Source: a virus
DNA: 41,111 nucleotides
Reading direction: 5' to 3' (one strand)
IMG/VR virus record: IMGVR_UViG_3300048784_000183
Location: 1-41,111 of that record
Under the pieces are notes generated by a model that saw only the letters and a list, made by a program, of their open reading frames with translations, was not told the origin of the DNA and did no database searches. Below, one piece after another: positions 3,954 to 35,630 of this stretch (position 1 is its first letter; each line of letters starts with the position of its first letter). Position numbers and translations under genes: made by a program.

Positions 3954-4204
3954 ATGAAAATTCAAAATGTTGAAATAAAAGTAAAAGATACCAGCGCAAC
4001 AGGGTCAACAATACCAGCGCAACAGGGTCAACAATACCAGCCAATAAATATATTTTTTTAGATAAAGAAAACAAAAAATACGAATTAAATAGAATTTATG
4101 ACGGTTCTCCTCTTGTAGAGGCTTGGGGCTTATGGAATGGTTCTTATAATTTGATCTCCATTTCCGATATTTCCTCAATAATAGACGAGGGCGATCGTGA
4201 CTAA
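3954..4204 (+). pseudogene. Small gene frameshifted by a 23-bp tandem duplication
   Basis: As written, the frame from ATG 3954 stops at 4061 after 35 codons. Removing one copy of the 23-bp tandem unit at 3988-4033 gives an intact 75-residue frame ending at 4204. Its continuation (ANKYIFLDKENKKYELNRIY, then AWGLWNGSYNLISISDISSI) reads as normal protein and its stop overlaps the GTG of the next gene. This points to a real gene broken by slippage, a phase-variable repeat, or an assembly error. Function unknown. Confidence 0.65.
3988..4041 (+). repeat. 23-bp tandem repeat, two full copies plus 8 bases
   Basis: Units at 3988-4010 and 4011-4033 are identical, followed by ATACCAGC of a third. Because 23 is not a multiple of three, each added copy changes the reading frame. 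Confidence 0.95.
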
Positions 4205-4376
4205 ACAAAAAATGGGAAGACCCCGAAAAGGGTCTAAAGTTCGAGAAGTTGTCTCAATTCGACTCGAACCGAAAATCAAAAAAGAACTGACAAAACAGCA
4301 TGGTTCAATTCAAGCATGGATTGATTCGATGCTTGGCCGTCGTGAAGGGACCACCACTAAAAAGGAGAGAGAATGA
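4197..4376 (+). CDS. Ribbon-helix-helix (CopG/Arc-like) DNA-binding protein, 59 aa
   Basis: Residues 6-50: MGRPRKG basic arm, beta strand REVVSIRLEP, helix KIKKELTKQH, then GSIQAWIDSMLG, the strand-helix-helix order of RHH repressors. GTG start overlaps the stop of the restored upstream gene; GAGG lies 7 bases upstream. It probably binds as a dimer of dimers to the palindrome in its own promoter at 3908-3922 (inference). The C-terminal GRREGT is encoded by a B-type boundary repeat. Confidence 0.7.
   Translation: MTKQKMGRPRKGSKVREVVSIRLEPKIKKELTKQHGSIQAWIDSMLGRREGTTTKKERE
4339..4351 (+). repeat. B-type boundary repeat, copy 3
   Basis: Inside the 3' end of the RHH gene, encoding its RREGT tail. 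Here the next gene uses an extra AAGGAGAG further downstream. Confidence 0.7.
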
Positions 4377-4636
4377 AAAAAGAATTAGAAACACAAAGGG
4401 ATGAGCTTGCGGCGCATTTGCAGCTTACAAATCAGTTCCACGAAGCAATGGGATACAACCATTCAAAGGCTTTCAAAGACGGGTTTAATGCTTGTCACGA
4501 TAAAATGATTGAAGAAGTTGATCGAGTAAGAAAATTGCTCGCTGATCTTGTTGAATCCAAAGCCTTACAAGAAGCGCCTTTTTATAATTACTCTGAGGCC
4601 GTTGCGAATGCCAAAGAGTTTTTAGCTGTTCAATAG
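4373..4636 (+). CDS. Hypothetical helical protein, 87 aa
   Basis: ATGA overlap with the RHH gene and a strong AAGGAGAGAGA. Predicted mostly coiled-coil or helical (KKELETQRDELAAHLQLTNQ, then MIEEVDRVRKLLADLVESKA). Contains HSKAFKDGFNACHDKMIEEV, a pattern common in small phage early proteins of unknown function. Confidence 0.65.
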   Translation: MKKELETQRDELAAHLQLTNQFHEAMGYNHSKAFKDGFNACHDKMIEEVDRVRKLLADLVESKALQEAPFYNYSEAVANAKEFLAVQ

Positions 4637-4664
4637 GGTAATCTTTGTTGGACAAGGGGGAAAA

Positions 4665-4817
4665 GTGACAGTCTGGATGCATAAAGGCGGGGACATTATT
4701 ATCAGGCATACACACCAATATCACAAGGGATGGCATGACTGTGAATGGGCTAACGGTACTGATTTTCATCGAGTGTTCTTCTTCAAAGAACACTGCGTTT
4801 ACATTGGGCGCTTTTAG
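4665..4817 (+). CDS. Small His/Trp-rich protein, 50 aa
   Basis: GTG start after GGGGGAAAA; an ATG four codons in is an alternative. Short protein dense in His and aromatic residues (HTHQYHKGWHDCEWANGTDF, then HRVFFFKEHCVYIGRF), possibly metal-binding. Not overlapped by its neighbours. No homologue recognised. Confidence 0.45.
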   Translation: MTVWMHKGGDIIIRHTHQYHKGWHDCEWANGTDFHRVFFFKEHCVYIGRF

Positions 4818-30640: not shown

Positions 30641-30716
30641 TGGCTGGGAGGGATGGGCTCGAACCACCGATATCTGCATTAACAGTGCAGCGCTTTACCA
30701 GCTAAGCTACTTCCCA
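30641..30716 (-). tRNA. tRNA-Asn (anticodon GUU), 76 nt with encoded CCA
   Basis: The minus strand folds into a complete cloverleaf: D arm GCTT...AAGC with AGCTGGTA loop; anticodon arm CTGCA-CTGTTAA-TGCAG (anticodon GTT); T arm GGTGG-TTCGAGC-CCATC (one GU); acceptor TGGGAAG/CCTCCCA with one A-C mismatch; discriminator G, then CCA. Its 5' end overlaps the last codons and stop of the TerS gene. It would be released from the late transcript by host RNases. Confidence 0.9.
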
Positions 30717-34420: not shown

Positions 34421-34445
34421 AACCCCAGCTCTGGAAACTGGGGTT
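34421..34445 (-). terminator. Terminator-like hairpin in the divergent control region
   Basis: AACCCCAG and CTGGGGTT form a perfect 8-bp stem; on the minus strand TCTTTTTG follows directly. On the plus strand a T-run starts only 12 bases later. It could insulate the late promoter from minus-strand read-through. Confidence 0.5.
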
Positions 34446-34489: not shown

Positions 34490-34520
34490 CACCAAAGTCA
34501 AATTCTTTTTTCACAAATTT

Positions 34521-34549
34521 TTGAAATAGTTAATCGACCGTTAAAAATA
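34521..34549 (+). promoter_or_regulatory. Weak promoter candidate for the structured RNA
   Basis: TTGAAA at 34521-34526 with an A-rich -10 region (TTAAAAATAC) at about 34541-34550. No consensus -10, so this is only a proposal. Confidence 0.25.
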
Positions 34550-34839
34550 CCCATATGCCTGCAAAGGTAACTGGGGGATGGAGTCAACCGGCGAGCAGCT
34601 GATGACTTCTAGGGAATGAATGCCCTAGCGGAAGGCGAAGAACTACTTCTAACCATAAAGGTCCAAGGATCCATGCCATTCATCTGTGGCTAACCTAACT
34701 TGGAGTCCTCTAGAAAAAATCATCACAGATGGTAGCTAGAGGTTTGTCCAGAGTATGGATTTAATTGTATCTGTGGAAGCAAACCTCGCGCACTACCGTT
34801 TGCGTCCTGACGAAGAGTACTTCGTCCAGGGGGGTTTTT
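34545..34839 (+). ncRNA. Large structured noncoding RNA candidate (about 290 nt) ending in a terminator
   Basis: No long open frame, but many complementary pairs: 34580-34586/34603-34609 (GGAGTCA), 34610-34614/34623-34627 (TAGGG), 34660-34667/34699-34708 (GGTCCAAG, 2-base bulge), 34681-34688/34724-34731 (CATCTGTG), 34707-34713/34736-34742 (CCTCTAG, crossing the last one: a pseudoknot), 34739-34746/34780-34787 (GAGGTTTG), and 34779-34784/34798-34803. Several share bases, so alternative folds are possible. A strong plus-strand terminator closes it. Not recognised as tmRNA, RNase P or a known riboswitch. Confidence 0.6.
34806..34839 (+). terminator. Intrinsic terminator at the end of the structured RNA
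   Basis: CCTGACGAAG and CTTCGTCCAGG pair with one bulged G around an AGTA loop, followed by GGGG and TTTTT. Orientation is plus strand only. Confidence 0.7.
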
Positions 34840-34867
34840 AAAGAGCGAGTTTTACAACTCTTTAAAA
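34836..34867. repeat. 10-bp inverted repeat next to the terminator
   Basis: TTTTAAAGAG (34836-34845) and CTCTTTAAAA (34858-34867) are perfect arms with a 12-base spacer. It lies 23 bases before a TTGACA (34891) and may be an operator or a backup terminator. Confidence 0.5.
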
Positions 34868-34929: not shown

Positions 34930-34959
34930 TTGGATATCAAACTTTAATTAAATTATAAT
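34930..34959 (+). promoter_or_regulatory. Early promoter candidate of the right arm
   Basis: TTGGAT (34930-34935), 18-base AT-rich spacer, consensus TATAAT (34954-34959). Transcription would start about 34965. An alternative -35 TTGACA at 34891 has no good -10. Confidence 0.6.
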
Positions 34960-35033: not shown

Positions 35034-35630
35034 ATGCAGGCATTTCATAATGATAAGAAGATTCAAGATAAATATCTAGGTAGAGTCCGTGCTCACGCCA
35101 AGGCTGATGAAATTATTAAAGGTCAGCATTGGCAAGATGGTAAAGGGTGCGCAGTGGGATGTACAATCCATTCTGGAAATCACCTTGCATATGAAACAGA
35201 ACTCGGCATTCCACAGTGGTTAGCAAAATTGGAAGATAGAATATTTGATGGTTTGCCAAACGAGATGGCCAAAGAGTTTCCTATTGAATTTATAGAAGCA
35301 ATAAATATTGGTGCTGATTTAAATAAGATTAAGATCCCAATGCTGATATTTATAGTTGAATCGGCTCTGGAAAAAACAAATAATGTAGAGGCACTGTCAG
35401 TTATTGACGGCGTACTAATATCTCTACGCCGAGATGTTTTAGATATAACAAAACTACGCGAAGCGCATGCTATCGATGCTGCTGCTGCTGCTGCTCTGGC
35501 CGCTGCTGCCGCTGCTGCTGGTGCTGTTACTCATGCTGCCGCTGCTGCTATAGCTGCTGGTGCTAGGGAAGATGAATATAAAAAATTCGCCGACAAATTA
35601 TTGCAATTAATTCGAGGTTGCAATGGCTAA
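35034..35630 (+). CDS. Phage early protein with a poly-alanine segment, 198 aa
   Basis: Starts MQAFHNDKKIQDKYLGRVRA, then GQHWQDGKGCAVGCTIHSGN and YETELGIPQWLAKLEDRIFD: a recurring phage early protein family whose function is unknown. Residues 149-177 are almost only Ala, encoded by GCT-rich repeats (35478-35564). The last residues are basic-helical. First gene of the right arm, downstream of a consensus promoter and leader hairpin. AGGAG precedes the ATG. Confidence 0.7.
   Translation: MQAFHNDKKIQDKYLGRVRAHAKADEIIKGQHWQDGKGCAVGCTIHSGNHLAYETELGIPQWLAKLEDRIFDGLPNEMAKEFPIEFIEAINIGADLNKIKIPMLIFIVESALEKTNNVEALSVIDGVLISLRRDVLDITKLREAHAIDAAAAAALAAAAAAAGAVTHAAAAAIAAGAREDEYKKFADKLLQLIRGCNG
35478..35564 (+). 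repeat. GCT/GCC triplet-rich run encoding poly-alanine
   Basis: Low-complexity run of GCTGCTGCT-type triplets with scattered changes. Length changes by slippage would stay in frame. Confidence 0.8.

Follow-up and report, generated by a model that had tools for sequence, protein, structure and literature searches.

The packaging RNA of phage phi29 is a structured phage RNA of about 174 nt. Large structured phage RNAs without an assigned role also form a known kind, represented by GOLLD and ROOL, which are phage-encoded, non-coding and elaborately folded with pseudoknots (PMC12286853). The putRNA of phage HK022, which is located near early promoters, consists of two stem-loops and is ~70 nt long (PMC9378689). 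For most of the large structured phage RNAs a role is still lacking. A compact RNA located where two divergent gene blocks meet, which shows compensatory changes from one phage to another and of which a further phage carries only the 3' module, provides a starting point from which the active part and the target can be tested.

The RNA candidate considered here is located at 34545-34839 (+) of the window, i.e., the whole 41,111-nt stretch of the IMG/VR virus record IMGVR_UViG_3300048784_000183 that was analysed. Its site in this uncultured phage is intergenic, between the divergent leftward (terminase/structural) and rightward (recombination) blocks. It resembles GOLLD and ROOL in being a predicted non-coding phage RNA with an elaborate fold, of which a P1/PX pseudoknot is a candidate part, but it is only ~300 nt long, whereas many GOLLD RNAs exceed 800 nt, and it lies away from the phage tRNA (30641-30716). 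The Rfam covariance models for GOLLD and ROOL did not match it at the gathering threshold or at E values up to 10, and in Rfam as a whole no family matched at the gathering threshold and none credibly at E up to 10. With the phi29 packaging RNA it shares its phage origin, its structured character and a length between one and a few hundred nt, but that RNA comes from another type of phage. A search of the window with ARAGORN for tmRNA found only the tRNA-Asn at 30641-30716, and a reading of the peptide ALAEG as a tmRNA-like tag was rejected. Scans of selected ORFs against Pfam and PHROGs revealed no IscB, TnpB or Cas nuclease that a guide RNA would serve. Judged by these comparisons, the RNA is outside every family tested, shorter than GOLLD and ROOL, and has two core members so far.

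When the piece 34545-34842 (298 nt) was folded, its + strand gave -109.7 kcal/mol, compared with -83.3 +/- 5.1 in dinucleotide shuffles (z -5.24, 0/200), whereas the complementary strand folded less well (z -2.73). Six perfect complementary arms of at least 7 nt are present, as against a mean of 1.65 and a maximum of 5 in 60 dinucleotide shuffles; arms of at least 8 nt number two versus 0.55 expected. As an 8-nt match is expected in about every second shuffle, no single arm pair is remarkable by itself, and the pairs quoted in the preliminary description, all of whose named segments were found in the sequence where it had placed them, required an evolutionary test. Its observation of a large structured RNA is confirmed by the strength of the fold and the excess of arms, and it was also right that no real coding frame exists, since ORFs fully within 34545-34839 encode only ~25-31 aa.

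Relatives were gathered by means of the terminase, which yielded 16 in IMG/VR and, in a MAG assigned to the Burkholderiales, one contig. Binning errors are frequent in MAGs, and the latter contig is hence only a weak hint of the host. Synteny of genes in the leftward block was seen in L005, L018, L012, L007, L008, and L013, and among these six the RNA core is present only in L005, whose terminase is 80% identical to that of the window. In L005 the homologue occupies the corresponding position, 5' of the syntenic late genes; the similarity to the window is 72% over 163 nt, including ~45 nt located 5' of the RNA, and continues as structure-guided similarity to the 3' end. Folded singly, the L005 RNA gave a z of only -2.3. 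A covariance model (R1, 170 positions), which was built from both of these sequences, scored 166 bits for L005 and 152 bits for the window. In the other terminase relatives and their whole records R1 found nothing above noise, and it had no match in 300 Burkholderiales and 398 Pseudomonadota genomes, a result that says little as a bacterial positive control was absent. The relatives of Sak4 and of a neighbouring 198-aa protein (L002-L004) do not have the RNA, and blastn searches of INPHARED and plasmids revealed no homologue, the L005 query retrieving only a 33-nt match to staphylococcal phages (E 0.03). When IMG/VR was scanned with four exact patterns, L005's own contig was returned and otherwise coding or random matches. 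The parts of the RNA region, compared between the window and L005 unless stated otherwise, are as follows.

34499-34551 (+): AT-rich block with a promoter-like site, TTGAAA-16-AAAAAT (34521-34548); the block is also conserved in L005, where CGACCGTTAAAAATA is identical.
34557-34568 (+): P2, hairpin with a GNRA tetraloop (GCCU-GCAA-AGGU; L005 CCCA-GCGA-UGGG); 2/4 pairs changed on both sides.
34575-34579 with 34705-34709 (+): P1, GGGAU/GUCCU, invariant in both phages.
34580-34609 (+): P3, two-part hairpin (GGAGUCA/UGACUUC and CGGC/GCUG); 4/11 pairs changed on both sides.
34610-34627 (+): P4, hairpin UAGGG-AAUGAAUG-CCCUA (L005 UAAGG-AAUGAAAG-CCUUA) with a near-invariant loop; 1/5 pairs compensatory.
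34634-34639 with 34743-34748 (+): PX, GGCGAA/UUUGUC (L005 GGCGUA/UGCGUC), proposed by RNAalifold and crossing P1.
34637-34649 (+): P5, hairpin GAAG-AACUA-CUUC; one both-sided and one one-sided change, one pair broken in L005.
34663-34703 (+): P6, CCAAG/CUUGG, in the hand alignment and A4; five pairs, all invariant.
34709-34740 (+): P7, UCUAG/CUAGA, with inner P7b, AUCAUC-ACA-GAUGGU (in L005 AUCAAU/AUUGGU); 3/6 and 2/6 pairs changed on both sides.
34741-34785 (+): P8, GGUUUG/CAAACC (L005 GGUG/CACC only); one compensatory pair in the hand alignment.
34788-34803 (+): P9, hairpin GCGCAC-UACC-GUUUGC; 2/5 pairs changed on both sides in four sequences.
34804-34839 (+): P10, hairpin with an RGUA loop, followed by a G-run and a T-run, the candidate 3' end and a possible terminator; 5/6 pairs changed on both sides in four sequences.

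In a structure-guided hand alignment of the two RNAs, 56 of the 59 consensus pairs are standard in both and 19 have changed on both sides, and these both-sided changes fall to 0-1 when the 3' partners are slid by 1-3 columns. An ungapped alignment of the core (A4) contains 13 both-sided changes among 45 pairs, where shuffles gave 6.6 (0/500) and sliding left 0-1. Both alignments were fitted to the structure, with letters trimmed from loops and bulges, and the core is present in two sequences only; P1 was entered in A4 with a shift of one column, an error that can lower its score but not raise it. RNAalifold was also run on A1, a plain MAFFT alignment made without fitting to the structure; it gave an energy z of -4.46 (0/200 column shuffles), and its 11 compensatory pairs are inside the shuffled range (mean 6.9, maximum 14). 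The thermodynamic minimum differs from the consensus fold in both phages (-110.2 vs -95.0 constrained for the window, -90.9 vs -61.1 for L005). The pairs retained and the changes on both sides leave us highly confident that this is a conserved structured RNA of the + strand. By the same comparison, a multi-helix fold consisting of P2, P3, P4, P7/P7b, P9, and P10 is conserved, and P6 is conserved without variation, whereas P1, being invariant in both phages, offers no covariation to test. The preliminary description had named covariation in relatives as a point on which its proposal could fail; such covariation is present in L005 and the proposal is not refuted on it.

The strand that folds is indicated by the hand alignment, where the + strand has 12 G-U cells and 0 A-C cells. 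This asymmetry and the conservation of loops speak against the possibility that the hairpins act as DNA, in an origin, an operator or a small mobile element with inverted repeats. Such an element would fit with the bracketing of the region by a 15-bp perfect inverted repeat (34497-34511/34881-34895), and with hairpins like P9-P10 that are antisense to genes in the microvirus-like contig L052, but a 3' copy of the bracketing repeat was not seen in L005, and we regard a DNA element as improbable. No inverted repeat as long was found in 60 shuffles; each of its copies reads outward AAAAAAGAATTTGAC (promoter-like TTGAC), and they are perhaps divergent promoters or an operator.

The near-invariant P4 loop contains a start codon (window MNALAEGEELLL..., L005 MKALAEGVKLFL...), and the conserved region could in principle be the leader or mRNA of a small peptide, as the N-terminal parts of a 25-aa ORF in the window (34616-34693) and a 20-aa ORF in L005 are alike. 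However, among 13 alignable codons there are, by eye, ~5 non-synonymous versus 3 synonymous changes, the C termini are unalignable and the Shine-Dalgarno-like bases abut the ATG. A peptide is for these reasons very improbable, the least credible of the explanations considered, and the similarity of the 25-aa ORF is probably a by-product of RNA conservation. Directly after P4, both phages also have an invariant GCGGAAGGCG.

The specific pairings that had been proposed fared differently from the RNA itself. The pairs CATCTGTG (34681-34688)/CACAGATG (34724-34731) and CCTCTAG (34707-34713)/CTAGAGG (34736-34742) do cross in the sequence, as had been noted. However, CATCTGTG lies within an insertion (34668-34698) in the P6 loop, which has 31 nt in the window versus 13 nt in L005, and as the segment is absent from L005 this pseudoknot is unconserved; CACAGATG belongs instead to the covarying local hairpin P7b (34719-34724/34728-34733). 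The second claim, of mutually exclusive stems, concerned CTAGAGG and the pair GAGGTTTG (34739-34746)/CAAACCTC (34780-34787). These pairings have GAGG in common, and CCTCTAG/CTAGAGG corresponds to P7, the inner part of which covaries with three compensatory pairs, but the exclusivity is not needed: when GTCC (34705-34708) is paired upstream with GGGAT, P7 and P8 abut, the clash disappears and one fold holds both. Thus, a switch between the P7 and P8 pairings does not appear to be required by the data. Refolding between alternative pairings is possible but unproven; PX competes with P5 and P8, and the minimum-energy fold of the window contains a 10-bp pairing, CAGAUGGUAG/CUACCGUUUG, which by eye is shorter and weaker in L005. 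Rfam aptamer families were not matched, the best score being a 10.6-bit fluoride match, far under its cut-off of 34.

An alternative pseudoknot, in which P1 is crossed by PX, is possible on the comparison of the two phages. All six PX pairs stand in both of them, but with one both-sided and one one-sided change this helix supports the crossing weakly. The order of the strands (5' P1, 5' PX, 3' P1, a hairpin, 3' PX) is reminiscent of the crossing P3 and P7 helices of group I introns, and with P1/PX as its core the RNA might be a ribozyme or a self-processing RNA. In contrast to group I introns, there is a long insert between the strands (~65 nt separate the 5' strand of PX from the 3' strand of P1), the site is intergenic without exons and no gene is interrupted. 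In addition, neither the Rfam group I model (P3-P9 core) nor any other Rfam ribozyme or intron matched at E up to 10, and we consider catalysis highly unlikely.

The two hairpins at the 3' end have a wider distribution than the core. P9 has the consensus NCGCRC-UAYC-GYUUGN, with an invariant G-U pair and a C-U mismatch, while the P10 stem is variable and its loop is RGUA. In L018 (4661-4728, - strand; hairpins at 4688-4728) P9-P10 occur without the core, just upstream of an early-side ORF that by eye is methyltransferase-like, and the copy is likely a natural deletion variant; at this site no promoter passed the scan and no terminator was called. Since the pair stands alone in L018, it is probably a separable module with a putative binding function. 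A scan of IMG/VR with a P9-P10 pattern gave 47 matches, including L005, L018, and a plausible one in L052, most of the others being coding repeats or random. L052 is a gokushovirus-like microvirus contig, in which the tandem hairpins (1184-1262) are located antisense to genes, between the gene for a putative Rep and the ORF that follows it. That L052 is homologous is likely but short of proof, because the search pattern demanded part of the motif and L052 was then used to build the model R2, which in 398 genomes gave weak matches at chance level. Over the four sequences, with spacers trimmed to a common length, 7 of the 11 pairs have changed on both sides. A broader proposal, that the RNA typifies a new class whose core is pseudoknotted and whose two-hairpin 3' module is separable, is common to other phages, even a gokushovirus-like microvirus, and would direct phage transcription through the binding of a shared host factor, is in our view speculative and rather unlikely.

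In layout, P9-P10 are comparable to the HK022 putRNA, which has two tandem stem-loops within ~70 nt and is located near early promoters (PMC9378689). This likeness leads to the strongest rival explanation, that the region is a cis-acting leader of the rightward operon, in which P9-P10 would be a put-type antiterminator or the whole RNA a terminator/antiterminator switch on read-through into 35034 and beyond. The window RNA is upstream of this operon on the same strand and points toward it, and the position of the L018 hairpins, just 5' of an early-side ORF and without a called terminator, and the overlapping pairings (P7/P8, PX/P5/P8 and the 10-bp pairing) are also as a leader would have them. 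Unlike putRNA, however, the hairpins in the window and L005 form the 3' end of a longer RNA with a ~230-nt core before them. Further, the ORFs next downstream in L005, at 4065-4439 and 4343-4747, are encoded by the other strand, rightward genes resuming only below 3897, so that no co-directional neighbouring gene is available there, and in the window the rightward operon has its own promoter-like site (34931-34959, 10/12). The P7/P8 overlap, as indicated above, fits one fold. A leader of this kind is thus unlikely, though less so than the other rivals. A switch-like terminator acting on the rightward operon is disfavoured by the same arrangement in L005. Of the terminator with a T-run, the hairpin (GACGAAG/CTTCGTC, 34809-34826), the G-run and the five T are present, but the structure is non-canonical, as the Gs part the stem from the T-run, and a terminator scan was silent.

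These arrangements, together with the conserved promoter-like block, point to an independent RNA gene in preference to a leader, and we consider such a gene probable. The similarity to L005 begins at the AT-rich block, which is probably the promoter and 5' end of the gene, as inferred from its conservation; its site is weak in the window scan (9/12 sigma70-like match), and the scan of L005 did not call an equivalent. Transcription would start from this block, and the RNA would end with P10 and the T-run or a little beyond them. The RNA may then act in trans, its GNRA hairpin, its P4 loop together with GCGGAAGGCG, and its two hairpins P9-P10 being offered to a partner from the host or the phage, and the downstream operon would not be switched by it; this putative binding role is the most likely mode of action but falls a little short of an even chance. 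With the next gene in L005 on the opposite strand, a free-standing trans-acting RNA gene is preferred to a switch or a terminator that serves the right operon. The full statement, viz. a free-standing ~300-nt phage noncoding RNA gene on the + strand that acts in trans as a folded molecule, we regard as evenly balanced. The claim of a new phage ncRNA is well supported, whereas the particular pseudoknot and switch had to be altered. Antisense action against the phage's own gene starts was rejected, the best duplex (-46.0 kcal/mol) being of a strength that shuffled RNAs also reach (minimum -48.2).

Other features were observed around this locus. A perfect 10-bp AT-rich hairpin (TTTTAAAGAG/CTCTTTAAAA, 34836-34867) overlaps the T-run and extends past it, and a strong leftward terminator-like hairpin (34421-34445, - strand; 11 pairs and a T-run) lies immediately to the left of the RNA region. 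L007 has, in the corresponding part of its genome, a long noncoding stretch (1585-1903, - strand) bounded by a 12-nt inverted repeat (92%) whose copies are 295 nt apart, with a fold no better than shuffles (z -0.7) and no Rfam match. The window also encodes a phage protein with sigma-70 region 4 (2294-2926; Pfam PF04545, E 6.7e-7), which could recognise the phage's own promoters. The 198-aa protein at 35034-35630 has an Ala-rich tract near its C terminus (GCN repeats, ~35470-35560), and relatives of its N-terminal part occur in L002 and L004.
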